Shown here: positions 17,379-48,610 of the stretch, in pieces
Layout: the number at the start of each line of letters is the position of its first letter
How positions within the stretch are numbered: position 1 is the first letter of the stretch
Origin: Armatimonadota bacterium
Lineage (GTDB): Bacteria; Armatimonadota; Hebobacteria; CAIYQO01
Length of the DNA: 54,393 nt
Assembly (NCBI GenBank): GCA_020060775.1
Contig: JAGUZN010000195.1
Coordinates: 1 to 54,393 of the forward strand
Direction: 5' to 3'
Made by a program: the position numbers and the translations under genes
Notes under the pieces: generated by a model
Database searches by the model: none
Seen by the model: the letters and a program-made list of their open reading frames with translations, nothing else
Told to the model about the DNA's origin: nothing

Positions 17379-18434
17379 ATGACTTGCGACCTCTCCGCAC
17401 GTATCGAACGCTGGCGCGTGCTGTACGACCGGGAATCGAAGACCCGCTTCCTGTTCACCATAGCGCTGCCGCCTGAGGAGCCGCGCCCGTTGTTCTGGCC
17501 GTCGCTGCGGCGCGAACGCGTGGCGTGGGCGTGGAATCAATATCAGCGCCAGTGTGAGCGGATGGCGTGGCTGGATGACGACAGCCTCCCCTACCTGGAC
17601 ATGCGGACCGGCACCGAGATCTTCGCCGAGGCCTTCGGCTGTGCCGTGCATCGCCCCGAGGACAACATGCCCTTCGCCCACCCCCTGATCACGAGCGCCC
17701 GCGACGTCGCCCGGCTGCGCGTGCCGGAATTGCGCGACACCCCGCTCATGTACCTCTTTGAGATGGCCGACGAGTTGCGCGAGCGCGCGGGCGAAGATGC
17801 GCTGGTTAAAATGGTGGATGTGCAGAGTCCCCTGGACATCGCCGCCCTCATCTGGGATAAGAACGACTTCTACTGCGCCTTCGTGGAGGAGCCGGAGGCC
17901 GTGAAGGCGCTGGCGGAGATGGTCGCCCAATTACTGACCGCCTTCCTCGACGCCTGGTTCGCGCGCTATGGCCGCGCGCATATCGCCCACTACCCGTCAT
18001 ACTACATGCCCGACGGCCTCACGCTCTCCGAAGACGAGGTGGGCGTGGTCAATGCCGACATCTTCGCGGAATTCTTCCTGCCGGAACTGGAACGGCTCTC
18101 CCTGCGCTATGGCGCGCTGGGCATGCATTGTTGCGCACATGCCCGGCATCAGTGGCAGCAATTCCTGCGCATCCCCAACTTGCGCGTATTGAATCTGGTG
18201 CAGCACCCCGAGGTCATCGCGGCGGCCTATCCCTTCTTCGCCGCGAGTACGGTGCAAATGCACACCTGCTACTACGGCGAGGGCGACCCCTGGACCTGGC
18301 CCGCCCAGCTCCCCGCCGACGCCCGCGTCATCATCGACGTCCCCGCCGACACCCCGCAGCAAGCCCGCACCCTGGCCGCCCGCCTGCGCGAAGCATGCGA
18401 GTCAGCAGAAGGGAATCAGCGCGAAACGGCGTGA
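17379..18434 (+). CDS. Uroporphyrinogen decarboxylase-like (URO-D superfamily) protein
   Basis: The 351-residue TIM-barrel protein belongs to the URO-D/MtaA/CmuA superfamily. GMHCCAHARHQW near residue 250 resembles the zinc-ligand region of corrinoid methyltransferases of this group, and LVQHPEV plus CYYGEGDPW follow. The length fits the family, but the N-terminal Arg-rich substrate signature of genuine heme-pathway UroD is absent, so it is not hemE. GGGAG precedes the ATG at 17379, which is preferred over upstream in-frame codons. Control by the divergent AraC regulator suggests a role in one-carbon or sugar-related catabolism rather than heme synthesis. The substrate is unknown. Confidence 0.8.
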   Translation: MTCDLSARIERWRVLYDRESKTRFLFTIALPPEEPRPLFWPSLRRERVAWAWNQYQRQCERMAWLDDDSLPYLDMRTGTEIFAEAFGCAVHRPEDNMPFAHPLITSARDVARLRVPELRDTPLMYLFEMADELRERAGEDALVKMVDVQSPLDIAALIWDKNDFYCAFVEEPEAVKALAEMVAQLLTAFLDAWFARYGRAHIAHYPSYYMPDGLTLSEDEVGVVNADIFAEFFLPELERLSLRYGALGMHCCAHARHQWQQFLRIPNLRVLNLVQHPEVIAAAYPFFAASTVQMHTCYYGEGDPWTWPAQLPADARVIIDVPADTPQQARTLAARLREACESAEGNQRETA

Positions 18435-18758
18435 CAACATGCGGACAAATACCTGCGTCACGGACGACCGATCAAACGTCATGCTGGTGACGCCTGTGCC
18501 CTGCTCACGTTTCGCGCGATGAATTTGTGTGACTGCTTCGATCTTCACTACGCTTTCCATGATAGGCCAATAGTTGCAGGAGGACGGTCGTCGAAGAGTA
18601 TATGATTAGCCCAGTAGAAAGATATAATCCGAAAAGAGCAATCCCATGCTTTTTGCCCAGTTCGACACTGAACTCGTAATAGTAATCGGTCATACCCCAC
18701 ACCCCTTTACAAACTGCACAATAATGCAGAACACGTCCATGTAAGGTGAAATATGTGA
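18435..18758. other. Spacer before the AT-rich island
   Basis: Composition shifts to AT-rich here. Apart from one small doubtful open frame on the minus strand (18505-18693) I see no gene, terminator or RNA. Confidence 0.5.
18505..18693 (-). CDS. Possible small membrane protein (doubtful)
   Basis: A 62-residue frame starts MTDYYYEFSVELGKKHG and has one hydrophobic segment (IALFGLYLSTGLIIYSSTTVLLQLL) and a charged tail. A purine-rich GGGGTGTGGGGT lies before the ATG. It sits in the AT-rich island and could be a genuine small protein, a remnant or chance. No family is recognised. Confidence 0.25.
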   Translation of the reverse strand: MTDYYYEFSVELGKKHGIALFGLYLSTGLIIYSSTTVLLQLLAYHGKRSEDRSSHTNSSRET

Positions 18759-18831
18759 CCTCCGGTGTCACCTATTTTGTTCCTTGCTCTGCCGGCGCGT
18801 GTCGCGGTCGGACCACCGGTTGAGCCTGCAG
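18759..18831 (+). repeat. 73-bp direct repeat, left copy
   Basis: It matches 20547-20619 with two mismatches and begins CCTCCGGTGTCACCTATTTT. The two copies bracket the DUF1963 gene. Its right part (GGTCGGACCACCGG) resembles the beginning of the 49-bp dispersed repeats at 8293 and 53985. Confidence 0.85.
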
Positions 18832-19033
18832 GCAGGCATGTCAACAGCACGGTCTAGAAGCCCACCTCGGTCGCGCCCCGGGTCTGCCCCGCCTCATAAC
18901 GGCAGCAGAGAACCGCGCCGCCCACTCTGCCTCGACACAGGACTACAAAACCTGTCCCTGCATTGAACATACTGACCGTCAAATACATAACTCATAACAA
19001 GTAGTACTATTGGCTATGGGGGAATTATCACAG
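18832..19033. other. Spacer, GC-rich remnant then AT-rich
   Basis: About 130 bases of GC-rich sequence continue from the repeat, then composition turns AT-rich at about 18960, just before the 3' end of the DUF1963 gene. No gene is seen. Confidence 0.4.
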
Positions 19034-20476
19034 CTACATTCTTGTAATTCTGATGGAAATAACACCTTTGAAATTCTTTGCATGCAAATCATCTCTTCGT
19101 ATATAGAAGTACAAGTAATTACACCAATACATCGGTGCGATTCCTTCACTTGGACAAAACTGAAGGAGCAATACGTACTCATCTTCTAATCTCGTAATTT
19201 CAACGGGTAAATCACCTTCGCAAACCCTTGAGAATGGATGATCATGCAGTGGGTTTGGGTGGCCGAACATCTGAATGGACTTATTTGAATACAAATCCGA
19301 ATACTTATCGAAATACTTGCTATATATTTCAATCTCATTACTCCGGCGTTCTGACGGTACAAAAATGGTATCTTCGTGCGGAAGTGTTGTTTGCGATTGG
19401 AAAGTAATTGTACAGGGAGTGATGTAGGTCTCTTCGAGGATGCCAATCGGCAAAGCGTGACGCTGAAGGATGGGCTCGTCATGGTAGTATACAGCGAAGA
19501 GATTAGAGGTAGCGGTACTCACGTACCCCTCTTCTGTAGTACAACCGCTGGCGGAGAAAAAGGAGAGCACTCCTCTTTCCGGCAACAGATCGGAATAACT
19601 GCCACGTATCTCAGAGAGATTAATCTGTGCCAAAAAGCTCATTGGTAAACCATCATATACTGGCCACATAATCGAGTTTGGTAAATCAGGGCATCCTCCT
19701 ATTTTTGACGATCCTACGGGCATTCTGTGATCATCAATTGGTGTGGCAGATAACTGTAATGAATCCTGCACCGCATTTCCGATCTGTGTTTTTCGAGCGC
19801 TGGATAGATTTGAATGCATAATCTCTTCCAGTATGCTCACAACGTCGTTCTTTTCTGGGTGCGAGATATCATTTACTTCCCGATCTCTGTAATCGGTAAA
19901 TATGTAGAGATAGTTATCACTAACAAGCTCTTCGAGTATATGCAAATTATAGAGGAGCACTGCGTTCTTTTCAAACCGCATTCTTGCAGCATTGATGAGG
20001 TCACCGAAGTTAGCATCATCAGCATAACATGAGTGGTATAGCGCCCAAAAACTAACTCTATCATCCGGATTTGCTAATAACTCTGATAGGTGAGTGGTGT
20101 AATTGTGGTGTCTTCTCAATTTCATGTAAGTCGAATGGAGCAAAGACTGCATTGCAATAGGATTATACTCATCAGAAAACGTATTCACCGCAAATTGGGC
20201 ATACTGGCCTAACAGGTCGTCTACGCTTTCAAAGTCAGCATCGAACAACCTATTAAATGAGTAGAGATCTTTTCTATGCTCGATAACATTATTCAACGAA
20301 CTAAGCCAATCTCTATGGTGACTATTAATATATTCTATTAACATTGCAATTTCACCAGCTTCGGTAATCCGATGCATCGAATCATGGAGTCGATGCCAGC
20401 TAATGTAATGTTTGATAAAGTTCGTAAAATTTTGCGTTCGATACAAGTCGAGGTACACTCTCTCAAATAGATTCAT
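19034..20476 (-). CDS. DUF1963 (YwqG-like) domain protein in AT-rich island
   Basis: The 480-residue protein has a C-terminal DUF1963 domain from about residue 250 to the end: SKIGGCPDLPNSIMWP, then PMSFLAQINLSEI, then LPERGVLSFF, then the C-terminal VLLLQFCPSE strand. The N-terminal 240 residues are helical and unrecognised. DUF1963 proteins have no firm biochemical role and often occur in accessory or polymorphic-toxin-immunity settings. The gene is clearly richer in A/T than its neighbours and uses codons such as AAT, ATA and TTA. It lies between two 73-bp direct repeats, so recent acquisition is likely. AGGAGG lies 5 bases before the ATG. Confidence 0.8.
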   Translation of the reverse strand: MNLFERVYLDLYRTQNFTNFIKHYISWHRLHDSMHRITEAGEIAMLIEYINSHHRDWLSSLNNVIEHRKDLYSFNRLFDADFESVDDLLGQYAQFAVNTFSDEYNPIAMQSLLHSTYMKLRRHHNYTTHLSELLANPDDRVSFWALYHSCYADDANFGDLINAARMRFEKNAVLLYNLHILEELVSDNYLYIFTDYRDREVNDISHPEKNDVVSILEEIMHSNLSSARKTQIGNAVQDSLQLSATPIDDHRMPVGSSKIGGCPDLPNSIMWPVYDGLPMSFLAQINLSEIRGSYSDLLPERGVLSFFSASGCTTEEGYVSTATSNLFAVYYHDEPILQRHALPIGILEETYITPCTITFQSQTTLPHEDTIFVPSERRSNEIEIYSKYFDKYSDLYSNKSIQMFGHPNPLHDHPFSRVCEGDLPVEITRLEDEYVLLLQFCPSEGIAPMYWCNYLYFYIRRDDLHAKNFKGVISIRITRM

Positions 20477-20546
20477 TGCATCCTCCTTTGTGCATGCTAT
20501 ATCAGATAATCAAGTACAACAACATCTTCTACAATTACAGGAGCAG

Positions 20547-20619
20547 CCTCCGGTGTCACCTATTTTGTTCCTTGCTCTGCTGGCGCGTGTTGCGGTCGGA
20601 CCACCGGTTGAGCCTGCAG
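20547..20619 (+). repeat. 73-bp direct repeat, right copy
   Basis: It matches 18759-18831 with two mismatches. GC-rich sequence continues to about 20710, up to the 3' end of the ankyrin gene; no gene is seen in it. Confidence 0.85.
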
Positions 20620-20714
20620 CCGGCGACCTGTGGCAGTCTCCAGGACCGCCATCTGCACGGGACTGGCCGGGAGCGGCCCGCGCGGGTGGCCAGTCGAGCA
20701 CGGCGAGCACTACA

Positions 20715-21443
20715 TCAGCGGTCTTTGGATTGCTGTACAATGCGCAGTGAATCAATAATGTCAGTATTTCCACGTTGCTGTGCGATGTCGGATAAGCTCT
20801 TTCCATCTCGAACTCGTACGTTCATGTCCGCACTCCCATCGCAAAGCGCTATTGCCGTATCCAGGTTATTATCAGCCACCGCGTAAAACAGCGGAGTGTA
20901 GCCTCTGTCGTCAGCCGCATTAGGATCTGCACCATTGGCTATCAGTAGTGATACGACCTTCCCGCTTGAACGACTGGCCGCACCATGCAACGGAGTCCCA
21001 CCACGCTTGTTCTTAGCGTTAACATCAGCACGATATTTTATCAACAGCCGCACGAGTTCTGTGACATCGTTGGTGTTTCTACTCCGATCGGATGTCGGCC
21101 AAAAGAGAAGGTGCAAAGGCGTGTCGCCCATATCGATTCGCGTATTCGCGTCAGCACCGGCAGCAAGCAGGATCGCTACCGCATCGACCTTTACGCCAAG
21201 AGCAGCTATGGACAGTGCCGTCCAACCACCATCGATCTCTTCATCTGGATTATGGCCGCGAGCGAGGAGATCATGCAGCAATTTGTTGTCTTCATATTGT
21301 ACAGCATCAAATATGGTTGCGAGATCCCCTTCATTATATAAGATGCATCGATTACAAATTTTCTCAAAGAAAAAAAGTCCTGACACGAGAGTCAGTACAA
21401 CTATTATTGTGATGGCGTTCGATACCGCACTTTTGATTTTCAT
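20715..21443 (-). CDS. Membrane-anchored ankyrin-repeat protein
   Basis: The 242-residue protein has an N-terminal hydrophobic anchor or signal (AITIIVVLTLVSGLFFF) followed by about five ankyrin repeats: GGWTALSIAAL, MGDTPLHLLF, RGGTPLHGAAS and RGYTPLFYAV, with hallmark turns AGADANTR, YRADVNAK and NGADPNAA. It is probably periplasmic or cytoplasmic-membrane bound and mediates protein-protein contacts. The ATG at 21443 is chosen because GGGGTACGG precedes it and the anchor starts directly after. A second, similarly built ankyrin protein occurs at 49785-50729. The 3' end lies close to the right 73-bp repeat. Confidence 0.85.
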   Translation of the reverse strand: MKIKSAVSNAITIIVVLTLVSGLFFFEKICNRCILYNEGDLATIFDAVQYEDNKLLHDLLARGHNPDEEIDGGWTALSIAALGVKVDAVAILLAAGADANTRIDMGDTPLHLLFWPTSDRSRNTNDVTELVRLLIKYRADVNAKNKRGGTPLHGAASRSSGKVVSLLIANGADPNAADDRGYTPLFYAVADNNLDTAIALCDGSADMNVRVRDGKSLSDIAQQRGNTDIIDSLRIVQQSKDR

Positions 21444-22465
21444 AACCGTACCCCAAACACTGCAAAGCACACACTCAACACTTCAGGACTCAACAAGCTT
21501 ACGATGAGTATACCCCCATGCCCCCACCCGTACAAGCGTCCATATCGAAAATGAACAGTACGATCTGGTTGACGCAAGACCTCCCCCTATCTATGAACCC
21601 TGCCACTCTGCAATCTGCAATCTGCAATCTCTACCCCATCCTGCCATCCTTTCATCCTGCGAATCCTGGTTCAGCCAGTTGACCAAACGCCCTCTCTGGT
21701 ATAGAATATATGTTTGATAAACCCGCACCGTGACAACCGCATAGTGCTCGGTGAATCATCCCAGGGAACGACCGCCTGCCGTGAGCGCAGTCGAACGGCC
21801 TGTCATGAGCACAGTCGAATGGCTGTGGCATTCCGCGGTGACGATCCAGGAACCATGCCCGACAACTCATCCCGGGGACCGATCCAGCCCGGTCCCAGCG
21901 GGACCGTTAACAATAGCCCGGTACTTCAGTGCCGGGAACAACGGCCACCTGCGGCCCCGGAGTCCCAGCGGGACGACTGATCCTCTTGCCCCTCCTTCTC
22001 CTCGGGGAGAAGGAGGTCGGGAGGATGAGGGCTCTTCCCCCTCTACCCGTGGGAGAGGGGGATCGAGGGGGTGAGGGAAATTACCACGCCAACATCGCAC
22101 ATCGAACAACCAATATCCAACATCGAATATCGACCAAAAACATTTTTTCGCAAAACAAAGCCAATTTCACGCTCACGACTTAACATAATATAAAAAACAA
22201 ACCCAATTCAAAGCCAAATTGTACCGATAAACAAAGCGATTAGTCAGTCCGCTTTGAGGATGCAACGACATTGGCTCATGTTCATCCGCACATGGCATAG
22301 GAAGACCCCCACCTTCCCCTCCCCCGTTGCGACAGGGGAGGGGAAGGCGCTTTCCGACTCGCGAAACGCCAAACGCCAAACGCGGACTAAACACGGACCG
22401 TGTCGGAGAACACGGCATAACGGGACGACCCACTAACTCAGGCCCGCAGTCTGCCCTGTGCCGCG
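21444..22465. repeat. About 1 kb of intergenic repeats and hairpins
   Basis: No convincing gene is present. Contents, left to right: three tandem CTGCAAT units (21608-21628); a GTCGAACGG-type repeat cluster (21772-21830); GGTCCC-AGC-GGGACC palindromes (21892-21906 and a shorter one at 21962-21974); a CCCGG...CCGGG hairpin (about 21918-21937); an 11-bp perfect stem with a TCGG loop (21991-22016); a second G/C-rich hairpin (about 22036-22060); an AATATCCAACATCGAATATC-type low-complexity stretch (about 22100-22135); and the GC-rich repeat at 22306-22433 listed separately. Confidence 0.6.
22306..22433 (+). repeat. GC-rich dispersed repeat, copy A
   Basis: It holds an 11-bp stem (22314-22324 with 22335-22345), then GCGAAACGCCAAACGC, then ACACGGACCGTGTCGGA, then GACGACCCAC. 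The same modules in the same order occur at 36831-36958, and reversed at 48371-48516. Confidence 0.75.
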
Positions 22466-36652: not shown

Positions 36653-36764
36653 AAGAGGATAGAAGGTTTTCCCTCCCCTTGCACGCGATAGAATAGCGCT
36701 AGCGATCAAGAGGAGAACCCCCACTGTTCGACTCGCTGTGCTCGCTCACAGCCTGCGGCCCGAC

Positions 36765-36958
36765 CCTCCCCCGTTCCGTTCGACGGTGCTCACGGTCTTC
36801 GAGCGACAGGGGAGGGGAAGACGGATTACCCCCACCCTACCCTCCCCCGTTGCGACAGGGGAGGGGAAAGCGCCTCGCGAAACGCGAAACGCCAACCACC
36901 CAACGCGACCTGAACATGGACCGTGTCGGAAGGCAAGACACCACGTGACGACCCACGA
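36765..36958 (+). repeat. GC-rich dispersed repeat, copy B (double)
   Basis: The left part (36765-36820) is the CCTCCCCCGTT...AGGGGAGGGG hairpin with a 30-base insert (GTTCGACGGTGCTCACGGTC core). The right part (36831-36958) repeats copy A's modules: hairpin, GCGAAACGCCAA, GGACCGTGTCGGA and CGTGACGACCCACGA. Confidence 0.75.
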
Positions 36959-36981
36959 CAGGTACTGGTTATCCATCCTGC

Positions 36982-38445: not shown

Positions 38446-39627
38446 TCACCCGCCGCGCACAGGGCGTACGAAGTTGTCGATGCGGATATCGTCGCCCTGC
38501 GGCCCGCGCCCGCGCGGATAGCGGGCGGGGTCGCCGGATTTCGGATCGCTCCGCTGTGCTCCGGCGCCGTGCACATCAATCAGGCTGAGTCGATGGGTCG
38601 GCGGCAGGGCCATCCAACCTAACGCACGTCCGAAGCAGACGTACACTGCCTGCGCGGCCTGCCGTTCCGGCGGTCCGTCCATATGCGTCGTGCTCGTCCA
38701 GTAGTACGGGTATTCCCCGCTTTGCAGGCGCGTGACGTGAAACACCGGATCGATCGCCGCGGAGCCGGTGGCCGTCGGCGAGCGCGAGTAGTCGACGATG
38801 CTCTGCAGCTCCTTGGCGTTCGGGAGCCGCCAGTCGCTGTACCCCAGATACCGTTCCGCATTGCGCGCCTGCACCCAGGCAAGCGCAGAGGCCCAGTCCA
38901 TACCCACTCCGCTGTCTTCTTTGGCCCAGATCAATCCGGTGGCGCGGTCAGTGATCGTCCCATTGCGATGATCGACAAAATCATTCTGACCGTATTTCGC
39001 GTTACCGCGCACGTACCGCACGTAGAGCTGGTGCGGGCCGCGCGGACCGCGATCACGCGGGTACCCCTTGATGCGCCCATCGGCAAAATTGACGCCAAAG
39101 ATGGTGGCACTGCCGTTCATCGTCGTACCCAGGTATTGAGTGGCCGACCAATCCTGACAATCGATCTCTCGCTCCCCCCGCGCGGGATTGCCATAGGCAA
39201 ACGCAAAATAGCGGGTGTCGAGATAGGGCACTGACCCACCGACCGACATGCGCATGCTTCCGGTGAAATTGATCAGCGAGTACAGTTCTTTGATGGTGGG
39301 CATGCGCCAGTCGCGATGTCCGCCGACGCGACAGCGGCTTGCGCCGGCCATCGCCTCGGCAAAGGTGACCTTCTCGCCGCGCGCCTGCATCCACGTGAGG
39401 CCGGTGTGCAGATCGCTGATGGTGCCGTCGCCGTTATCGCGGTAGGCGGGTTGGCAACCGGCATGTTGCGCATCCTGGCCGTAGAAGGGTTGACCGGGGC
39501 GCGGAGCTGTGATGGCACGCGTGTTATCATAGCACTGCGTTTGCCCGGTATCGACGATGGGATACGTCACCGCACACAGGCTCACGGCGTGCGCGAGCCA
39601 CACGGTAATGAGCAGCAACATTTTCAT
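38446..39627 (-). CDS. Secreted protein with two DUF1566 (Lcl-type) domains
   Basis: The 393-residue protein has a short signal peptide (MLLLITVWLAHAVSLCAVT). Two DUF1566 repeats are visible: NGDGTISDLHTGLTWMQ...DWRMPTIKELYSLI (about 66-125) and RNGTITDRATGLIWAK...DWRLPNAKELQSIVDY (about 220-285). It ends in RIDNFVRPVRGG, the family's usual last strand. DUF1566 is related to the Lcl collagen-like adhesin C-terminal domain and is usually surface exposed. It lies 132 bases downstream of the six-gene envelope operon. It has its own promoter with the same TGTGAT direct-repeat signal as that operon, so it is probably in the same regulon. GGGAG precedes the ATG. Confidence 0.85.
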   Translation of the reverse strand: MKMLLLITVWLAHAVSLCAVTYPIVDTGQTQCYDNTRAITAPRPGQPFYGQDAQHAGCQPAYRDNGDGTISDLHTGLTWMQARGEKVTFAEAMAGASRCRVGGHRDWRMPTIKELYSLINFTGSMRMSVGGSVPYLDTRYFAFAYGNPARGEREIDCQDWSATQYLGTTMNGSATIFGVNFADGRIKGYPRDRGPRGPHQLYVRYVRGNAKYGQNDFVDHRNGTITDRATGLIWAKEDSGVGMDWASALAWVQARNAERYLGYSDWRLPNAKELQSIVDYSRSPTATGSAAIDPVFHVTRLQSGEYPYYWTSTTHMDGPPERQAAQAVYVCFGRALGWMALPPTHRLSLIDVHGAGAQRSDPKSGDPARYPRGRGPQGDDIRIDNFVRPVRGG

Positions 39628-39759: not shown

Positions 39760-40377
39760 TTAACGTGTCAATTGCGCTCGGGCGACGGTATTTGTGGGAT
39801 CAAGGGTCAGCACCGTCTCGAAGACCTGCCGGGCGGCGTGCGGCTGTTGGCGGGCCTGCAGCACCAATCCATGTTCAACCAGCAGGCCGACATCGGTGGG
39901 GTAAAAACGCAGCAAGCGCGTGAGCACCGCATCGGCCTGCGCATACTCGTGCTGCATGCGCAGGGCATAGGCGAGGCGCATGCTGCCCAGGTAATGGTTG
40001 CCGTCAAGCTTCAGCACCTGCCGCGCCACCTTCTCCACCTCGTCGTAGCGGCGCTGCGCCAGCAGCGGGAGCGTATAGCCCAGCTTGGCCTCAATGGAGG
40101 CCGGCGAAATTTTCATCGCTTCCCGGTAGTGTACGCTGGAGGCCGCGTAGTCGGTCTGCAGATAGTACAGCCATCCCAGCCGGTACGACACGAGATAGCT
40201 TTTCGGCAGCGCAGCGAGGCAGTTGACGGCCTCAGTATAACTCCCCTGCTGCTCGAGGAGATATGAATGGTGCAAGGCCGTGCGCGCGGCGTCATCGGCC
40301 ACCTGATCTGATGGACGTGCGAAACAGACCACGCCCACCACGCCCAGCAGCACAATGATCATACTCAGGACTTTCAT
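39760..40377 (-). CDS. Secreted TPR protein (last gene of the envelope operon)
   Basis: The 205-residue protein has a signal peptide or anchor (VLSMIIVLLGVVGVVCFA) followed by four or five TPRs: SYRLGWLYYLQTDYAASSVHYREAM, AKLGYTLPLLAQRRYDEVEKVAR, GSMRLAYALRMQHEYAQADAVL and VEHGLVLQARQQPHAARQVFE. It probably sits in the periplasm and bridges to the outer-membrane barrel encoded just upstream; TPR plus barrel pairs are common in polysaccharide and envelope export. AAAGGAG precedes the ATG at 40377, 13 bases after the barrel gene's stop. Confidence 0.82.
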   Translation of the reverse strand: MKVLSMIIVLLGVVGVVCFARPSDQVADDAARTALHHSYLLEQQGSYTEAVNCLAALPKSYLVSYRLGWLYYLQTDYAASSVHYREAMKISPASIEAKLGYTLPLLAQRRYDEVEKVARQVLKLDGNHYLGSMRLAYALRMQHEYAQADAVLTRLLRFYPTDVGLLVEHGLVLQARQQPHAARQVFETVLTLDPTNTVARAQLTR

Positions 40378-40390
40378 GGCAGAGCTCCTT

Positions 40391-41236
40391 TCAATACTGC
40401 ACATATCCGCTCAGTACCACAGCGGTGCTCGTCGCGCGCCGCTGGGTATTGGCTTCGGTGAACCGCGCCTGTTGCAGTCGCATGCCGACGCGGCCGGTGG
40501 CACTGATGGTGTAGAGGAGATCGAGGCTGATGCTGCGATGATAGACATCAGCCAGATTGAACAGGGCAAACCCATCCTGCTGCACTCCGAAACGCTGCTC
40601 CCCGATCCAGGCAGTCTCCAGCAATTGCCAGCGATCCCAGGCCAGCGACAGGCGGTTTTCGACTGACAGGTAGGGTGAGCCTTCGCCGACGGGGTCATCA
40701 TTCATGTAGATGAGATGACCGAGCAGCTCGTCGGCAACCGTGAGCCCCCTGCCCGCGGGCATGGTCATCCCCGCGCGGGGGGAGAGTTGCAGCACCGTCA
40801 GCTTATTGGGCTGGTAATTAGGGTAACGCGTGAGATAGGCGTCCACGCCTGCCGTCCACCGGCTGGAGCTGGTGTAATGCCTGCCGCCGAATACGGTGAT
40901 GGCTTTGTCAGTGTAGGCGTCATCGCTGCTGACGAAGTGCGTGCCGAGGCGCGAGCGCCACCGGGGAGAATGGTAATACGTATACACGAGCGTGCTGTCC
41001 CACTGATCGAGGGCCGGCCGATCCTGGTAGGTGATATGCAGATGGTCGAGCGCGGCCTCCAGCAGGTACTCTACGCCATCGGTCTGCATGCCGTACACGC
41101 CAACCAGCGTTCCCCCTTCCTTTGCCGTGGCGTCATGGTAGGTCATGGCGCCGGCATACGGGATGACCATCGACGATGGCGCGGCCTGGGCGGCGAACGG
41201 TACGGCAAAGCACAGGATAACGAGCAGTATCGACAT
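40391..41236 (-). CDS. Predicted outer-membrane beta-barrel protein
   Basis: The 281-residue protein has a signal peptide (ILLVILCFAVPFAAQAAP). A series of alternating amphipathic strands follows with aromatic girdles (STLVYTYYHSPRWRSRLGTHFV, WTAGVDAYLTRYPNY, SISLDLLYTISATGRVGMRLQ), and the last residues VLSGYVQY end in an aromatic residue as barrel proteins do. It resembles YaiO-like or small porin-like barrels but carries no motif I can name. GGGGAGAAGATA precedes the ATG at 41236, 14 bases after the transporter/peptidase gene. It would be the outer-membrane exit or entry point of the operon's product. Confidence 0.75.
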   Translation of the reverse strand: MSILLVILCFAVPFAAQAAPSSMVIPYAGAMTYHDATAKEGGTLVGVYGMQTDGVEYLLEAALDHLHITYQDRPALDQWDSTLVYTYYHSPRWRSRLGTHFVSSDDAYTDKAITVFGGRHYTSSSRWTAGVDAYLTRYPNYQPNKLTVLQLSPRAGMTMPAGRGLTVADELLGHLIYMNDDPVGEGSPYLSVENRLSLAWDRWQLLETAWIGEQRFGVQQDGFALFNLADVYHRSISLDLLYTISATGRVGMRLQQARFTEANTQRRATSTAVVLSGYVQY

Positions 41237-41250
41237 TATCTTCTCCCCTC

Positions 41251-43464
41251 TCACGTACAGGTCATGGATGCGCCGGAGGCCGGAGCGGCGAGTTCCTGAT
41301 TGATCGGCTCGACCTCCACGGTCGCATCGGCATAGGCAACGGTGAGGCCCACCACTCCCCGGTGGGGCTTGAGCGTCACCGTGACGCACTGCGGAGCGCG
41401 ACAGAGAGCCAGCGCGGGGATGCCGCGGGTGGAGATTTCCGTCTCCACCGTGACGGTGAGGTCATCGCCAAACCCCTGGTCCAACAGGTGCAGTCGTTGG
41501 CGCAAAGTGAGGGCCGGATAGGGCAGGAACGGACCGGCGATATCGAAGAGCAGGCGCGCCAGCGGATGCATGAGCGGCCGCGCATCCAGCCGATCTTCCC
41601 AGTAGAGCCCGCGATCCAGCGTGAGCGGCAGGCGTGCCAGCCCCAGCCAGATATCGCGCAGCGTGCTATGCGGCGACCCCTGAAATTCGAGGGCATACCA
41701 GACGTGGTCGACCAGCCGCGCGGTCATCACGGCATCGGTGGCGTCTGAGTGCAGGCGGTATGCGCCGTCCTCATCCACGCGGCAGGTGATCGATTCTTCA
41801 CGTTGCTGCCCCGAGGCGATGATCCGGTACCGCCAGCGCTGCTGGGGGAGCCGATCAAAGCACGACGCCAGCGCGTCAGTGAATGCCACGGGACGAATCA
41901 CGCTACCCTCGGCCGGGACGACGGCGGACGCGTAGCGCACTTCGTCGCCACGGCGGATCGCCAGGTGACTGAGGACAAACGGCATGGTCGGCGCACCGAG
42001 CGCCGGGGTGGCCTGCACCTGCAGATGCAGGTGGGGCAAGGGCGAATGACCGGAGTTGCCACAACGGGCGAGCAGCGTGCCGGGCTCCACGCGGTCGCCT
42101 TCCTTCACCCCGACAGACTCTCTGGCCAGATGGCACAACAGCACATAAACGCCGTTATCCTGACGGATCATTACCAGGTTGCCCCAGTTGGCCTCCAGGT
42201 TCGTTGCGCCGACAGGATTATCCGCCACGTGATTGACGACTTTCACCACCGTGCCCGCGCAAGGAGCGATCACCGGCGCCAGATAGGCGAAATAGTTGCT
42301 CAGCTGGCTTTCATCACCCTGGCATCGCCGGCCTCGGTCGTCGAGGATTTCGAAGTCAAGGGCGTGCGCCCACGGCCCGCGATGGGTGAGCTGGCCGTGC
42401 ATGCCCTGCGTCACCGTCCACTCACCGCAAAACGGCGCCAGCAGGTGAGGCTGCAACAGGTGAGGAAAGCGCAGAGCGCCGGCGTGGTAGCGGTGGAAAT
42501 TTTCCTCCGGCGTGCTGGGCAGGAAGGGAGTCATCACGGCGCCCTTCGGTACGGAGCGCAGGCGCAGCGCGGCGAGCACCGCCAGCACCGCCAGATTCAT
42601 GGGCAGGGCAAGCGGGGGGATGGCATACACACCCAACAGGGTGGCGGCGGCGAGGGCGGTGAGGGCGCAGATGCCCGAGGAGACGACGACCAGCAACAAG
42701 CTGGCCGTCGAGGGTATGAGGAAGATGCCGCCAATGGCGATGCCGGCAAAGATAAAGTTGAAGGCGATCGGCGCCAGGCCGATCGTCGAGGTATCCGCCT
42801 GCAACCCCTGCAGCATGAATACGCCCGCGGCAAAGCCGGCCACCGCATAGAGCAAAGCCAGCCGCGACACGGCAAGCAAGCCGGCGCAGGCCAGCATGCC
42901 CACCAGGGCGTGCGGCAGGAAGAAGATGGCGCCCAGTCCCTGGAAGAAAGACAGTGCGGCAGCGGGCAGTCCCGCCGGTTCGGGCAGCAGGTAGGCCGGC
43001 GCGGCAGCCTGCACCGGCATGCCGGTCATCGCATAGGCGACGAGGTAGATGCAGAGGGCGACCAGCACGAACGGCAGGCTCATCGCCGGCAGCCCACCCT
43101 GGCGGGCCAACATGGAGGACAGCATGACGGTGACCATCAAGGCCAGCACCGCGCAGAGCGCCAACAGCAACAACAGCATAGTGGGCGGCAGGTGCAGCGA
43201 TTGATGCACATGCGCGAGGCCCAGGGACACCAGCAGCGGGTTGTAGAGGTATGCGCCGCTGCGCGTTTCGGCATGGTCAAACCCCAGCGCTTCCGCGGTG
43301 ATGAGGGCGATGAGCATGCCGGCAAGTCCCAGCAGGCCATATGATGGCGCGAGCAGCGTAGCCAGCAGTAATAGCGCGCCCAGCCCGCTGTTCGTCGAGA
43401 AGAGCAGTGCGGCATACCCGCGCAGGATCGCCCGCGCATACGCGATGATCTCGTCCTTCCACAT
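41251..43464 (-). CDS. Urea-transporter-type membrane protein fused to M23 peptidase domain
   Basis: This 737-residue fusion has residues 1-305 as a multi-spanning urea-transporter-type channel: GFDHAETRSGAYLYNPLLVSLGL (about 61-83) and IAFNFIFAGIAIGG (about 233-246) match the duplicated pore signatures. Residues 310-560 form a LytM/M23 peptidoglycan endopeptidase domain: GPWAHALDFE (H367, D370), NWGNLVMIRQDNGVYVLLCHL and PLPHLHLQV (H478, H480), with the final HxH intact. The first metal motif is HxxD rather than the usual HxxxD. A further beta-rich region runs to the end. GGAGGG lies 4 bases before the ATG at 43464, 19 bases after the decarboxylase stop. It could couple uptake or release of a small solute to local cell-wall opening. 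Confidence 0.85.
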   Translation of the reverse strand: MWKDEIIAYARAILRGYAALLFSTNSGLGALLLLATLLAPSYGLLGLAGMLIALITAEALGFDHAETRSGAYLYNPLLVSLGLAHVHQSLHLPPTMLLLLLALCAVLALMVTVMLSSMLARQGGLPAMSLPFVLVALCIYLVAYAMTGMPVQAAAPAYLLPEPAGLPAAALSFFQGLGAIFFLPHALVGMLACAGLLAVSRLALLYAVAGFAAGVFMLQGLQADTSTIGLAPIAFNFIFAGIAIGGIFLIPSTASLLLVVVSSGICALTALAAATLLGVYAIPPLALPMNLAVLAVLAALRLRSVPKGAVMTPFLPSTPEENFHRYHAGALRFPHLLQPHLLAPFCGEWTVTQGMHGQLTHRGPWAHALDFEILDDRGRRCQGDESQLSNYFAYLAPVIAPCAGTVVKVVNHVADNPVGATNLEANWGNLVMIRQDNGVYVLLCHLARESVGVKEGDRVEPGTLLARCGNSGHSPLPHLHLQVQATPALGAPTMPFVLSHLAIRRGDEVRYASAVVPAEGSVIRPVAFTDALASCFDRLPQQRWRYRIIASGQQREESITCRVDEDGAYRLHSDATDAVMTARLVDHVWYALEFQGSPHSTLRDIWLGLARLPLTLDRGLYWEDRLDARPLMHPLARLLFDIAGPFLPYPALTLRQRLHLLDQGFGDDLTVTVETEISTRGIPALALCRAPQCVTVTLKPHRGVVGLTVAYADATVEVEPINQELAAPASGASMTCT

Positions 43465-43483
43465 GGTTCCCTCCATTCTCCGG

Positions 43484-44830
43484 TCAGACCAGCCGTTCCG
43501 GCATGCGTTCCATGGCCTCCACATCGGCCAGTGTTTCGCGTTCTCGAATGACATCGACCGTGCCATCCTGTCCGACCAGCACCACGCGCGGCCGGTAGGT
43601 GATGAACTGCATGGATTGCACCACGTTGTACGCCCCCACCGGATGCAGCACCAGCCGATCGCCAGTGCGCACCTGCGGCAGATGCACATGCTCGCGAATC
43701 ACATCGATATTCATGCACAGCGGGCCGTACAGTATCGCATCGCTGCCCGGGCCGGGGATGTCGCGCGCGGGCAGGGTGCGCAAGCGATACCAGTTGGCGG
43801 TGTAGAGGATATTCACGCCGGCATCGATGATGACGGCGCGCCGCCCGTCAGGGGTGCGCTTTTGCGCAACCACGCTGGTGATCAGATAGCCGCTCTCATC
43901 GATCAACGCCCGTCCCGACTCCAGGTACAGGGTTGGTCGCGGCAGGTGGGCGGGAAGGCCGGCGAGCAGCGTATCGCAGATCGCCTCGGCATACTGGTCG
44001 ATCGACGGCGTCACCTGCTCGCCCGGCAGGTACTGGGTGTGCAGGGTGTTGCAGGAGGGAAAGCCGCCGCCCAGATCCAGGTATTCCAGCGCCATATCGT
44101 ATTCACGCCAGGCGACCTCAGCCACGTCCAGCAGTTTGGTTACGGCCACACGATAGGCGTTGGGATCAAGGACGAAGGTGCCGATGTGCGTGTGCAGGCC
44201 GGTCAAGCGCAAGTGCTTGCTGGCGCCGATGCGCCGCACAATGCGCAGGGCCTCCTGGTTTTCCAGATTGAAGCCGAACTTGGTCCAGGCCGGGAAGATG
44301 CCGGTATCCATGTTGATGCGAATGCCGACGGGAATGGTCATCTGTAATTCCTCGGCCAGCGCCTCCAGCATCAGCAGCTCATCCTGATTATCCAGGTGAA
44401 TCTTGGCGCCCTCCCGCACGGCCTGCCGCAGCAGATCAGGTGTTTTATAGGGACCGTTGAGGATGATGTCCGGGCCGGCGATGCCCAGGCGGCGCGCCTT
44501 GGCATATTCAAAATCGGAGACGACTTCCGCGATGGCCCCTTCCTGATGAAACAGGCGGCAGATGGCCTGCAGATAGTTCGTCTTATAGGACCAGGCGAAG
44601 CGCACATCCGGGTAGCGCGTGCTGAAGGCGCGATGCGCTTGCCGGTATTTGTCGCGCAGGGCGCCCTCGTCGTACACGAACACCGGTGATCCATGCTCAC
44701 GCGCCAATGCCTCGACATCGACGCCGGCAATGCGCCCGCAGGCGCGCTGCTCCACCCCATAGCCAAACTTGTTCATCAACCCCGGCACATTGCGGTCGAT
44801 GCAGGGGGGCTGGTACACGCGGGTCTCCAT
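43484..44830 (-). CDS. PLP-dependent decarboxylase, fold type III (DAP/ornithine decarboxylase-like)
   Basis: The 448-residue protein has an alanine-racemase-like barrel in which the PLP lysine is in FAWSYKTNYL (about 77-86). GLHTHIGTF (about 206), the glycine loop LDLGGGFPS (about 255) and the C-terminal beta domain with GPLCMNIDVIREHV follow. The GPLC segment (Cys from the partner subunit) is the conserved catalytic cysteine of this family. It most resembles diaminopimelate decarboxylase-like enzymes but is not next to lysine genes, so the substrate may be a conjugated diamino acid or polyamine precursor. AAAGGAGG precedes the ATG at 44830, 11 bases after the ATP-grasp gene. Confidence 0.88.
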   Translation of the reverse strand: METRVYQPPCIDRNVPGLMNKFGYGVEQRACGRIAGVDVEALAREHGSPVFVYDEGALRDKYRQAHRAFSTRYPDVRFAWSYKTNYLQAICRLFHQEGAIAEVVSDFEYAKARRLGIAGPDIILNGPYKTPDLLRQAVREGAKIHLDNQDELLMLEALAEELQMTIPVGIRINMDTGIFPAWTKFGFNLENQEALRIVRRIGASKHLRLTGLHTHIGTFVLDPNAYRVAVTKLLDVAEVAWREYDMALEYLDLGGGFPSCNTLHTQYLPGEQVTPSIDQYAEAICDTLLAGLPAHLPRPTLYLESGRALIDESGYLITSVVAQKRTPDGRRAVIIDAGVNILYTANWYRLRTLPARDIPGPGSDAILYGPLCMNIDVIREHVHLPQVRTGDRLVLHPVGAYNVVQSMQFITYRPRVVLVGQDGTVDVIRERETLADVEAMERMPERLV

Positions 44831-44841
44831 CGCGTCCTCCT

Positions 44842-45918
44842 TTATGCGAGACAGGCGAGCGATTCGGCAAACGGTTGACAGCGCCATTCGCCGAGCGAGG
44901 TTAGCGCGCCCATATCGTCCACCCGACAGGTGATATCCTCGGTGCGGCGGATGTAGAAATAGCCCGGTTCGCTGGGCGGCAGCGGCGTCATGCGGCCTTC
45001 GACGAGCGCCTCGACCACCAGCGCAGGCATGTTCTGCCCGAAGGTGGAGGGGAAATCGACCCAGGCGGGGAAGCGCGGGTTGATCTCCAGCAGGTAGTAC
45101 TGCCCGCTCACCTCGTCTTGCAGGAATTCGAGCTCCATCGGCCCGAGCCAGCGCAGTTCGCGGATGAGCGCCAGGCTGTCGCGGGTTAGCGCCGGATCAT
45201 CGATGACGATGCCGCCATACCCCTTGCCCTGCTGTGAGCGGATCATTTTGCGAATGGCACAAAGGGCCGCCACGCCGCCGCGGCCATCGCCCACCGCCAT
45301 GACGTTGAATTCCTGCCCATGGATGCATTCCTGCAGGATCACCGGCCCGCCCCATTTCGCCATGAGGTAGTGGAACTGCTCGATGAGCGCCGGCTGCGAA
45401 GCCACGCGATAGGCCTCGTAAAAGGGGCCTTTGATGATCATCGGATAGGCGAATCCCGCGGCGGCGTTCAGCAGGCCGGACAGGTCGGCGACCTGCCGGC
45501 TGATCGGGGTCAGACAGCCGCATCGGTCGGTCAACGCCATCAGTTCGCTCTTGCGGCGCGCCTCGAAGGCGGAGCGTTCGGGCAGCAGGGTGCGAATGCC
45601 GCGCTCGGCCAGCCGGGGCAGCAACCCGATCATCGGCAAGATCTCGGCATCGAGGGTGGGGATCAGCACATCGATGGGGTAGCGGGCATGAATGGTATCC
45701 AGGCGTTGCAACAGCGCGCCCTCGCCCGCCGAGGGATAGGGCAGTTCAAAGACGATGTCAGCGCAGTGGTCACTGTAGATGCCGCTTTCCAGCACATCGT
45801 AGACCAGGCCGATCACCGTGAGATCGGCGTAACGGCGGCGCAGGCTGCGGATGACGCCCACGCCGGGCTGGGGATTCTCGCCGGCATGCAGGCCGGTCAC
45901 GGCAACGGTGAGGTTCAT
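44842..45918 (-). CDS. ATP-grasp ligase (carboxylate-amine ligase type)
   Basis: The 358-residue protein has the ATP-grasp fold. An N-terminal Rossmann-like domain (LTVAVTGLHAGENPQPGVGVIRSL, VLIPTLDAE) is followed by the ATP-binding lysine segment FAYPMIIKGPF, the hinge VILQECIHGQEFNV and the Mg2+ site GPMELEFLQDE...YYLLEINPRFPAWV. It should activate a carboxylate as acyl phosphate and join it to an amine, as in PylC, PurK or dipeptide ligases. The start is ATG at 45918 (or the overlapping ATG at 45921), and its first bases overlap the stop of the PqqD-like gene, so the two are translationally coupled. The substrate is unknown. Confidence 0.88.
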   Translation of the reverse strand: MNLTVAVTGLHAGENPQPGVGVIRSLRRRYADLTVIGLVYDVLESGIYSDHCADIVFELPYPSAGEGALLQRLDTIHARYPIDVLIPTLDAEILPMIGLLPRLAERGIRTLLPERSAFEARRKSELMALTDRCGCLTPISRQVADLSGLLNAAAGFAYPMIIKGPFYEAYRVASQPALIEQFHYLMAKWGGPVILQECIHGQEFNVMAVGDGRGGVAALCAIRKMIRSQQGKGYGGIVIDDPALTRDSLALIRELRWLGPMELEFLQDEVSGQYYLLEINPRFPAWVDFPSTFGQNMPALVVEALVEGRMTPLPPSEPGYFYIRRTEDITCRVDDMGALTSLGEWRCQPFAESLACLA

Positions 45919-46181
45919 CATGCCACCTCCTCGCATAACGCGAGCAGTCCGTAGCGTTGCAACTGCCCGAGGAAGACCTCGATGTCATGCCGTGCGGTGA
46001 GGGCATCGACATCATAGGCGTCGAGCAGGCGGGCGACAAGTTGCTCATCGCTGTCACCCTCCTTCAACCCGCGAATGATCTCCATGCCGGCGCCGTTGAT
46101 GGTGTAGGTGTAGCCGGTGGTGCGATCGAAGGCAAAGCCATTGTCGTTCATGAGCAGTTCGCGTAATGTGGCCGTCTGCAT
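45918..46181 (-). CDS. PqqD-like small protein (first gene of the envelope operon)
   Basis: The 87-residue protein fits the PqqD fold: FDRTTGYTYTINGAGMEIIRGL (about 17-38), then a helix SDEQLVARLLDAYDV and the C-terminal DIEVFLGQLQRYGLL. PqqD domains bind leader peptides and present them to modifying enzymes. Here it is joined by an ATP-grasp ligase rather than a radical SAM enzyme. No obvious precursor peptide lies within the operon or the 250 bases upstream. GGAAGGAGGGCGAG precedes the ATG at 46181. The upstream region contains the TGTGAT direct-repeat promoter. Its place as first gene makes it a candidate substrate-carrier for the pathway. Confidence 0.82.
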   Translation of the reverse strand: MQTATLRELLMNDNGFAFDRTTGYTYTINGAGMEIIRGLKEGDSDEQLVARLLDAYDVDALTARHDIEVFLGQLQRYGLLALCEEVA

Positions 46182-46281: not shown

Positions 46282-46376
46282 GCAGGGGGAGGAGAGGTTG
46301 TTTGAACCGGAGCAGTACTCGTTTCCTGTGTTGCAGCGTTCGAGGAAGGATGGAGGGAACGGTGGTCATACACAGC

Positions 46377-46412
46377 CACGCCCCCGTCCGATACGCATGG
46401 GACGGGGGCGTG
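46377..46412. terminator. Strong hairpin after the DUF4139 gene
   Basis: A perfect 13-bp GC-rich stem (46377-46389 with 46400-46412) around a 10-base loop, 20 bases beyond the DUF4139 stop. It separates that gene from the PqqD-led operon. Confidence 0.65.
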
Positions 46413-46432
46413 GGCGTGCTGTGACCTATACG

Positions 46433-48169
46433 TCAGCGCCAGTAATAGTACCAGGTGTAATTGAGGTCGAGCGTCTGTCCCGGTACGAGCGTGTGATTCC
46501 ACTTGATGTTGCCGATGCCGTTGAGGTGGCCCCACCACTCTCCCCACTGGTGGTGATTCACCCAGGTGGGAAGCAGCGCCATACCATCATCAAACGCGCT
46601 GAACTGCAGCACTTCTCCGTTGTTATCCGCCTCGGTAACCGAACCGAGGACGCCTCGGGTGATCTCCAGCTTGATGGGCTGCGTTTGACGATTCGTCAGC
46701 GTCACCGTACCTTTCAGATCAACACGCGAGTACTGGTATCCGTTCATACTGACCGCGTTTGGCGTACGTTTTGATTCGACGTCTTTCCTATTTACGGCGA
46801 TATCGACGGCGGTGGTCAGCGGCAGATCGCAGGTGCTGCCTGGCGCCGCATAGGTCATCATCCCTTGCGCCAGCAGGCGATTCTCCCGGAAGATGAGCGC
46901 AGGAGCGGTGGTGAGCGGGGCGGTATGCGCGTTCTTCAGGCGGATGACATGTGTCGCTTTGGGCGAGGCAAAGAGGCGCGCCAGTTCTGCCTGCTGCTCT
47001 CTATTGATGCTCCGCGTCATTTCTTTCAACGGCGCGAACGGCAGGTTCACCGTATAGACATCCTCATAGGCCAGCGTGAATGTGGCGATCGGCACGACCA
47101 TGCGCTCGCCCTTGCGCAGCGTGATATGTTCGAGGGTAAAGATATAGAGATCTTCGCTTTTCCCTTCTTCGGTGATTTCCGGTCCCAGGTTCATCGGCGG
47201 GCTGGTGGGATGCGGTGCGTCATATCGCTCGTTTCTCGGCCGCACTTGCTGGCTCATGATGGCATTACTGAACCCCAACGCGGTCTGCGAACCTTCGTGG
47301 AAGTACGGCGTGAGTTGCGCGGCCACCTGCTGCAACGCCATGGGGTCGATGGTATCTTTGAAGGCAAAGGTGGGGACGCCGACCACCAGATGGGCGGTGA
47401 CATCGGTCAGGTCGGTCAGTTCATTCAATAGCGTGCCCTGCAATGTGATGGTGGCCTTGCCCTTCCCATCGAGCTGAACTTTGTAGTTGGGAATCCAGCG
47501 GATGCCCTTCTGCAGGTAGATCATGCCCACCTGCGCGGTGTTCGCCGGTTTGCGTGTTCCCCAGTCGAACTGCAGGGTGAGCAGGTTGCGATCTTCCTCT
47601 TCGGTGAGCGTGCCCCGCGGGGGCGATGTGAAGGTGACATCCTGAATGCGGTCGATATACACGGCGCGATGTCCCTCATCGGTTTTCAGCATGACCAGGC
47701 CGGAGCGAGAAACCGGATCGTGTTGATTGCGCGCGGGCGCAGTATTGGATTCATCAGCTTCGCGCCGGGGCACGCCCAGGACCACGGCAGGATAGCTTTT
47801 CCCGTCGTTCGTTTCCGTGATCACGGCTTCTGCGCCAATGTTGCCCTCAAGGAGTTCGCGGATGGTGATGGCCGTACGATCCACCGCTACCTTGCGCCGA
47901 CCGGCGCGCACGCCAACAAGCTTGGGCGCATCCTTAGCGGCATACGGCCAGAAGGCGCCGACCACCGGCTGCGGCAGGTAATCTAACACTACGTTGCCTT
48001 CGGCATTAGTCGGCATCGTTCCCTCGTGCAGCACGAAGGCATGCCCATCTTTAAAGACGGTGACTTCCTTCACCGGCATCTTCGCCAGCGCCTCCAGTGG
48101 TTCCGCCCTTTCCGCGCAAGCCAGCGCAGGGGAGAAGAGCAACAGAACAACGCCAATCCGTAGGTTCAT
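46433..48169 (-). CDS. Secreted DUF4139-domain protein
   Basis: The 578-residue protein has a signal peptide (IGVVLLLFSPALACAERAEP). It matches the DUF4139 family: an N-terminal KEVTVFKDGHAFVLHEG segment and the middle/C-terminal barrel-like segment GIRWIPNYKVQLDGKGKATITLQGTLLNELTDLTDV (about 230-265), which is the domain hallmark. It ends in a run of aromatic residues (NYTWYYYWR). Function is unknown; relatives are periplasmic or surface proteins. AAAGGAG precedes the ATG at 48169. It is transcribed alone, ends in a strong hairpin, and is on the same strand as the PqqD-led operon. Confidence 0.82.
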   Translation of the reverse strand: MNLRIGVVLLLFSPALACAERAEPLEALAKMPVKEVTVFKDGHAFVLHEGTMPTNAEGNVVLDYLPQPVVGAFWPYAAKDAPKLVGVRAGRRKVAVDRTAITIRELLEGNIGAEAVITETNDGKSYPAVVLGVPRREADESNTAPARNQHDPVSRSGLVMLKTDEGHRAVYIDRIQDVTFTSPPRGTLTEEEDRNLLTLQFDWGTRKPANTAQVGMIYLQKGIRWIPNYKVQLDGKGKATITLQGTLLNELTDLTDVTAHLVVGVPTFAFKDTIDPMALQQVAAQLTPYFHEGSQTALGFSNAIMSQQVRPRNERYDAPHPTSPPMNLGPEITEEGKSEDLYIFTLEHITLRKGERMVVPIATFTLAYEDVYTVNLPFAPLKEMTRSINREQQAELARLFASPKATHVIRLKNAHTAPLTTAPALIFRENRLLAQGMMTYAAPGSTCDLPLTTAVDIAVNRKDVESKRTPNAVSMNGYQYSRVDLKGTVTLTNRQTQPIKLEITRGVLGSVTEADNNGEVLQFSAFDDGMALLPTWVNHHQWGEWWGHLNGIGNIKWNHTLVPGQTLDLNYTWYYYWR

Positions 48170-48610
48170 CGGGTGATCTCCTTTGTATATGGTGTGCCTG
48201 AAAGTATACGTATGGCTAGTACAATTCGTTACACGCACCGGCACTGTTTTTATACGGTGAGATCTGTGGACTGCCGATGATGTGCGCGCGATCGTGTTGA
48301 CCCGGGGGTATGCGCCGACTACAATGGCATTACCAGCCGCCGGCCCTGCCGCGCAACGAGTAGGTGTACCGGGTTGTCACGTTGCGTCTTGCTCTCCGAC
48401 CTCTTGCTGGCTGAGTCCGCGTTTGGCGGTTGGCGTTTCGCGTTTGGGTCAGCGTCTTCCCCTCCCCTGTCGCTCGAAGACCGTGAGCACCGTCGAACGA
48501 AACGGGGGAGGGAATGGCCTATCTCACCTTCATGCGCCGCGGATAGGGCGCACGCGATGGCCTTGCCAGACAGAACACAACGTGACGACCCGCGATGAGT
48601 AGGCGCACCG
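48170..48610. other. Spacer between divergent DUF4139 and K+ channel genes
   Basis: It holds a TATACT-containing AT-rich stretch (about 48190-48260), likely the DUF4139 promoter area with a GTATACGTAT palindrome, and the 221-bp inverted-repeat element listed separately. No gene is seen. Confidence 0.5.
48371..48591. mobile_element. MITE-like element carrying GC-rich repeat copy C (reversed)
   Basis: The ends are inverted repeats: GGGTTGTCACGTTG at 48371-48384 and CAACGTGACGACCC at 48578-48591, 13 of 14 matching. Inside lies copy C of the dispersed GC-rich repeat in reverse orientation (CGCGTTTGGCGGTTGGCGTTTCGCG, hairpin and CCGTGAGCACCGTCGAACG core shared with copy B). No transposase is present, so mobility would depend on an enzyme elsewhere. 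Confidence 0.55.

Follow-up and report, generated by a model that had tools for sequence, protein, structure and literature searches.

What do six tightly packed genes make together, when their products belong to known families and the set as a whole matches no described pathway? The question is posed by a minus-strand operon on contig JAGUZN010000195.1 of an Armatimonadota bacterium (GTDB lineage Bacteria; Armatimonadota; Hebobacteria; CAIYQO01; assembly GCA_020060775.1), the full 54,393 nucleotides of which are called the window below. Its six closely spaced open reading frames encode a PqqD-like protein, an ATP-grasp ligase, a pyridoxal phosphate (PLP)-dependent decarboxylase, a UT-fold membrane channel domain fused to an M23 metallopeptidase domain (UT-M23), a predicted outer-membrane beta-barrel and an exported TPR protein (Table 1). 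An earlier note on this DNA, made without database searches, proposed that the operon builds a small amino-acid- or peptide-derived molecule in the cytoplasm and moves it through the inner and outer membranes. That interpretation is borne out in part: the genes form a co-conserved unit unlike described pathways, whereas the peptidoglycan-cutting and urea-channel roles assigned to the fusion protein do not hold up well. We read the operon as a conserved module that makes and exports a small amide, with a probability of about 0.5. The note did not recognise it as a characterised pathway, and a literature search, with preprints and most subscription journals outside its range, found no published description of the gene set either; the six-gene system is apparently undescribed.

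Conservation of the operon across phyla

The coordinates of the open reading frames bear out the compact layout first described, with genes separated by 11-19 bases or by a start/stop overlap. The PqqD and ATP-grasp genes share a 4-base ATGA overlap, and the gaps that follow measure 11 bases (ATP-grasp/PLP), 19 (PLP/UT-M23), 14 (UT-M23/barrel) and 13 (barrel/TPR). The names originally given to the genes are likewise retained. Pfam supports PqqD, the decarboxylase, UT-M23 and TPR, the last through TPR families that match the final gene of the operon, and a predicted fold supports the ATP-grasp enzyme. The barrel has no Pfam match and owes its assignment to a homolog, 35% identical, that lies directly after UT-M23 in a verrucomicrobial locus (L076) and gives a weak OMP_b-brl match there.

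Among 291 Armatimonadota genomes, the source genome alone has UT-M23 or a close relative of the ATP-grasp protein; one related cluster is present in a Candidatus Zipacnadia genome, assigned by NCBI to Armatimonadota. A search of 388 Verrucomicrobiota genomes with the ATP-grasp protein recovered relatives, 29-46% identical, in eight. L076 carries all six genes (TPR-PqqD-ATP-grasp-PLP-UT/M23-barrel), L075 and L077 carry TPR-PqqD-ATP-grasp-PLP-UT/M23, and in L078, L079 and L080 a Ser/Thr-kinase-like gene is followed by ATP-grasp-PLP-UT/M23. A PqqD-like gene adjoins ATP-grasp in L039, L075, L076, L077, L079 and L081, and TPR homologs stand directly before PqqD in L075, L076 and L077. The UT family is found in seven of the 388 genomes; in six it takes the form of a UT-M23 fusion beside ATP-grasp and decarboxylase genes, and in the seventh that of a plain 343-aa frame. 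UT and ATP-grasp coincide in six genomes (6/7 of the UT-bearing and 6/8 of the ATP-grasp-bearing ones), always as neighbours, for which the chance probability is about 4e-11. The same gene order in another phylum is far beyond chance, and the co-occurrence test that the earlier note proposed comes out in its favour, since the core four genes and the TPR gene recur in Verrucomicrobiota.

Gene trees are poorly resolved with regard to the date of transfer and an origin in one clade. Plasmid searches with four operon proteins returned no operon copy, and scans of viral contigs found nothing. The kinase-linked form of the operon (L078-L080), which includes FHA-like and PqqD genes in L079 and an FHA-like gene in L080, hints at phosphorylation control.

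Substrate of the decarboxylase

The chemistry of the putative pathway is most legible in the decarboxylase. Its Pfam domains score 109.8 and 49.3 bits, and it falls below the cut-offs of both the lysA model TIGR01048 (221.2 vs 297.9 bits) and the FslC model NF041039 (230.3 vs 500 bits); it resembles FslC/FigC and is not a member of that family. The best solved relative is the N-citrylornithine decarboxylase FigC (7kh2, 206 bits), followed by diaminopimelate decarboxylase (DAPDC, 136 bits) and BtrK (about 124 bits). ODC, ADC and DAPDC bind the free side-chain amine through an acid adjoining the catalytic Cys, and in FigC Met355 stands in its place (PMC7857480). The Arg through which DAPDC binds diaminopimelate (DAP) is also replaced by other residues in FigC, and the clade that contains FigC, SbnH, AcsE, MccE and BtrK acts on conjugated amino acids (PMC7857480).

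The operon enzyme has the same Cys-Met motif (GPLCMNID, compared with GPSCMQHD in FigC). The motif is found in 7/7 operon copies and in 17 of 18 copies of the fused type described below, the exception (L057) having lost the catalytic Cys and looking degenerate; DAPDC-type paralogs have Cys-Glu. Thr occupies the DAPDC Arg position in the operon copies, and the source genome has a separate LysA-like copy with CE and RP, common to its family relatives. To judge from these scores and residues the operon enzyme is not a diaminopimelate decarboxylase, and because Cys-Met replaces Cys-acid as in FigC, it probably acts on an acylated amino acid that the ATP-grasp enzyme produces. The earlier note cited the decarboxylation of amino acids by type III PLP enzymes: the fold stands, but a free amino acid is probably not the substrate, since the likeness to the conjugate decarboxylases FigC and FslC points to an order in which ligation precedes decarboxylation.

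The ligase, its pairing with the decarboxylase and the PqqD-like protein

The ATP-grasp protein is only weakly matched by sequence, CPSase_L_D2 (20.3 bits) being the sole Pfam family above cut-off. An AlphaFold model built from 20 relatives, with a predicted local distance difference test score (pLDDT) of 84, has the L-amino acid ligase 3vot as its best PDB match (E 1.4e-19); further fold matches are 2pn1, CPSase and biotin carboxylase folds, RizA and PylC.

The pair formed by this ligase and the decarboxylase extends well beyond the operon. An ATP-grasp followed, in frame or directly next to it, by a decarboxylase that shares the fold of the operon decarboxylase is encoded on a Streptomyces plasmid and on 17 of 19 contigs from the genome collection, fusion being established for those fused-type loci that were read through. 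Fused or adjacent, the two occur in Streptomyces, Actinokineospora, Acidimicrobiales, Gemmatimonadetes, Nitrospirae (as separate neighbouring genes in the metagenome-assembled genome L055) and Candidatus Zipacnadia. Most fused-type loci add a protein of about 200 aa with conserved Cys, His and Asp, for which an uncertain model (pLDDT 59) gives a weak hint of a transglutaminase/vasohibin-like fold, and in two Streptomyces loci a UT gene lies beside the fused pair. Because the pair recurs so widely with differing hydrolase and channel genes, it is, on this distribution, best taken as the ancient core of the system, with hydrolase and channel as its variable parts. Two further features of these loci deserve mention. 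In Streptomyces L042 and L048 the fused pair and the Cys-His-Asp and UT genes sit amid chaplin-looking genes, which suggests a link to aerial growth or the cell surface. In Actinokineospora (L040, L043, L049-L051 and L054) a radical-SAM-like, B12-type-looking gene, identified by reading and not by a hidden Markov model, lies directly upstream of the fused pair.

The PqqD-like protein clears its Pfam cut-off with ease (48.5 vs 23.4 bits) and exceeds that of TIGR04353 (HPr-rel-A; 38 vs 35 bits), below which the copies of L075 and L076 fall; it stays under the lasso-peptide cut-offs of NF033530 (44.3 vs 70 bits) and NF033536 (23.5 vs 80 bits). In the operon and those flanking genes that were scanned there was neither a radical SAM enzyme nor an HprK-like kinase, in agreement with the earlier note. 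Its suggestion to look for a short precursor gene near the core genes gave a negative answer, no small intergenic open reading frame or precursor peptide being conserved among the nine loci compared. The PqqD-like protein possibly acts as a carrier, a peptide chaperone or a partner of the ligase.

The channel-peptidase fusion

The UT domain scores 169.5 bits over positions 2-290 of the 292 in the Pfam model, and its alignment with dvUT and UT-B runs over the full length; the Peptidase_M23 domain scores 53.2 bits, and the C-terminal region has no Pfam match. The same fusion is present in L075-L080, and the M23 zinc ligands (a His before the Asp of a D(F/L) motif, and a PHxH motif) occur in 7/7 UT-M23 proteins. 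The window protein has A, A, S and A, respectively, opposite residues Q24, E187, T130 and T294 of dvUT, which we take to be those that bind urea. Among the fused relatives, Q, D, E, S and A all occur where dvUT has Q24, and none retains the Glu of E187. The name of urea channel is doubtful because the pore has lost these ligands.

Both termini of UT-B and dvUT lie inside the cell, and nearly all copies are rich in Arg and Lys just beyond the last UT membrane segment, on account of which the fused M23 domain probably faces the cytoplasm. A haloarchaeal relative of the same M23 subtype (L082:3749-4672, P0007), a membrane protein encoded near nitrile hydratase genes, is positively charged in the stretch that follows its membrane part, and haloarchaea have no murein. 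The predicted cytoplasmic location and the occurrence of the subtype in a murein-free organism make peptidoglycan cutting doubtful as well. Annotation by family name (DAP decarboxylase, urea transporter, peptidoglycan peptidase) is probably wrong for all three genes concerned.

Proposed pathway and alternatives

In the module that we propose, the ATP-grasp enzyme would activate a carboxylate as an acyl phosphate and join it to the amino group of an amino acid, with PqqD possibly presenting the acceptor or serving as carrier. The PLP decarboxylase would then strip the alpha-carboxyl from the conjugate, and not from a free diamino acid, which is the best-supported step. The product would meet UT-M23 in the inner membrane, where the M23 domain on the cytoplasmic side may cut an amide and thereby free or shorten the product on its way into the pore. 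More speculatively, the exported TPR protein and the outer-membrane barrel could assist its exit from the cell. We infer ligation and decarboxylation from the residue signatures and the ATP-grasp/decarboxylase fusions, and cutting and export at the membrane from domain content and predicted topology. Passage through both membranes, as the earlier note had it, is plausible. The outer-membrane part is the weakest part of the scheme, because the TPR gene is present in four of the seven operons with UT-M23 and the barrel in two. A tentative elaboration, which we hold to be doubtful as it stands, is that synthesis and decarboxylation of the amide take place on a carrier or a PqqD-bound peptide to which it is tethered, and that M23 at the cytoplasmic mouth of the UT fold frees it into the pore.

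Several observations weigh against an export module for a small amide. The barrel is confined to those two operons; L081 has PqqD, two ATP-grasps and PLP without UT, and L039 has only PqqD and an ATP-grasp (46% identical). Of the 19 fused-type loci only two have UT next to the fused pair, and the sequence surrounding the DAPDC Arg position is, in the fused copies, unlike both FigC and DAPDC. The first urea-pore residue is retained in L075. Simple hydropathy gives 7-10 transmembrane segments, and the topology of UT-M23 rests on homology.

The members of the PqqD family are classical peptide-binding chaperones, and it is natural to ask whether the operon makes a ribosomally synthesized and post-translationally modified peptide (RiPP): PqqD would recognise a precursor that the ATP-grasp and decarboxylase modify, and M23, or the transglutaminase-like enzyme of the sister clusters, would remove the leader. 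The sister clusters, in which ligase and decarboxylase are paired with the Cys-His-Asp protein, do recall lasso-peptide pairs. We nevertheless consider a RiPP unlikely, given that the nine loci conserve no small intergenic frame, that PqqD scores far under the lasso cut-offs and that the ATP-grasp fold is like those of free amino-acid ligases and CPSase, with no graspetide-type resemblance shown. A graspetide in particular is disfavoured for want of a conserved small frame next to ATP-grasp in these loci, and PQQ biosynthesis on the same count together with the lack of a radical SAM gene among those scanned. There is also a small chance that the product is a siderophore or resembles a protease inhibitor, as with the rhizoferrin of FigA/FigC and fungal E-64, which would be a special case of the small amide; the closest characterised decarboxylase is a siderophore enzyme, and the route to E-64 employs an ATP-grasp ligase together with amines that arise by decarboxylation (PMC12568646), but neither an NIS synthetase nor a TonB receptor was recognised among the genes read.

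Modification of peptidoglycan or the envelope, with an amine made by the decarboxylase and attached by ATP-grasp to an envelope precursor while M23 cuts murein, appears improbable. It would suit the usual activity of M23 enzymes, the envelope nature of the TPR and barrel proteins and the distant relationship of the decarboxylase to LysA; it sits poorly with an M23 domain predicted to be cytoplasmic, with its close relative in a haloarchaeal membrane protein and with the loss of the DAP-specificity residues. Uptake is a very improbable explanation. Here the barrel and UT would import urea or a small amide, M23 would cleave it and the enzymes would assimilate it; UT family members do conduct urea and the barrel and TPR proteins could serve import, but ATP-grasp and decarboxylase form a biosynthetic pair, the four pore residues of dvUT are replaced in the window protein, and at most fused-type loci no UT gene lies near the pair.

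If the small-amide reading is right, the operon represents an apparently undescribed pathway common to Armatimonadota and Verrucomicrobiota, and its ATP-grasp/decarboxylase family reaches more widely, into Actinomycetota and Gemmatimonadetes. ATP-grasp and an alanine-racemase-fold decarboxylase would then constitute a portable unit that makes an amide and decarboxylates it, next to a repurposed urea-channel fold and an M23 peptidase active in the cytoplasm. Tethered, export-coupled biosynthesis, if true, would add a new solute for UT-fold proteins and a cytoplasmic, non-murein role for M23 enzymes.

Genomic setting of the operon

The operon is separated from the gene upstream by 251 bases containing a very stable hairpin. 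The hairpin has no T-run and is absent from the output of the terminator scan; it probably marks the operon boundary. The upstream gene (46433-48172, same strand) encodes 579 aa without a Pfam match. Because three other Armatimonadota genomes have genes 44-54% identical to it, the contig probably belongs to the source genome, and misbinning is disfavoured. On the downstream side, the Lcl_C gene is a doubtful seventh member of the operon. A homolog also flanks the L077 operon, but in most other operon genomes the homologs lie elsewhere, and G002 has one although searches there gave no UT-M23 or ATP-grasp relative. This DUF1566-type protein is 72% identical in G002 and 57-62% identical in several Verrucomicrobiota, far above the conservation of the operon genes.

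Table 1. Features of the operon and its surroundings, with positions in the window
Feature	Position	Strand	Support
PqqD-like small protein, 87 aa, operon gene 1	45918..46181	-	Pfam PqqD and TIGR04353
ATP-grasp ligase, 359 aa	44842..45921	-	AlphaFold model fold matches; relatives 29-46% identical
Alanine-racemase-fold (type III) PLP decarboxylase, FigC/FslC-like	43484..44830	-	Pfam, NCBIfam, 7kh2, Cys-Met motif
UT-fold membrane channel domain, M23 metallopeptidase domain and C-terminal region of ~240 aa	41251..43464	-	Pfam
Predicted outer-membrane beta-barrel, signal-peptide-like N terminus	40391..41236	-	Homolog in L076
Exported TPR protein, final gene of the operon	39760..40377	-	TPR families; homologs in L075, L076, L077
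Very stable hairpin between upstream gene and operon	46370..46433	-	-38.3 kcal/mol, z -4.6
Lcl_C-domain secreted protein, 132 bases downstream of operon	38446..39627	-	Lcl_C 145 bits

A dispersed intergenic repeat of about 130-215 bases occurs at 36757-36970, 48355-48519 and 22300-22433 of the window; two inverted copies bracket an 11.4-kb stretch that holds the operon, and the third lies 14.5 kb off. Positions 18000-22000 form an island of low G+C content (50% vs 60-65%) with a DUF1963 gene and an ankyrin-like gene, in which a 73-base direct repeat, 97% identical, is found at 18759 and 20547. An Rfam search of the window, the operon leader and six relatives gave no riboswitch, and PADLOC gave no defence-system match.

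Comparison with known systems

With HPr-rel-A the operon shares a PqqD protein above the TIGR04353 cut-off, but its partner genes are others and do not include an HprK-like kinase among those scanned. A PqqD family chaperone is also what it has in common with PQQ and lasso-peptide biosynthesis, from which it differs in the absence of a radical SAM PqqE or lasso cyclase and of a precursor peptide among the genes and loci compared. The channel domain matches the whole UT model and belongs to the fold family of the urea channels dvUT and UT-B; unlike these, it has Ala in place of the urea-coordinating Gln and Glu and is fused to M23 and a C-terminal region.

Closer parallels exist for the enzymatic core. 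In the BtrI-BtrJ-BtrK system of the butirosin side chain, a ligase-loaded substrate is decarboxylated on a carrier by a related decarboxylase; BtrJ is an ATP-grasp enzyme, and BtrI has 87 aa, the same length as the operon PqqD. PqqD does not have the acyl carrier fold, however, and the operon decarboxylase is nearer to FigC than to BtrK. The rhizoferrin enzymes FigA/FigC (FslA/FslC) and the SbnH/AcsE/MccE/BtrK clade likewise follow a ligase with an alanine-racemase-fold decarboxylase, and FigC offers the nearest sequence, the Cys-Met motif and the loss of the DAPDC Arg. The ligase of the operon is an ATP-grasp enzyme rather than an NIS synthetase (FslA/FigA), and PqqD, UT-M23, TPR and the barrel are without counterpart in that system. 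The parts are thus all of known families and the core logic is like that of FigA/FigC, while it is a real possibility that the coupling of channel and peptidase represents a new kind of system.

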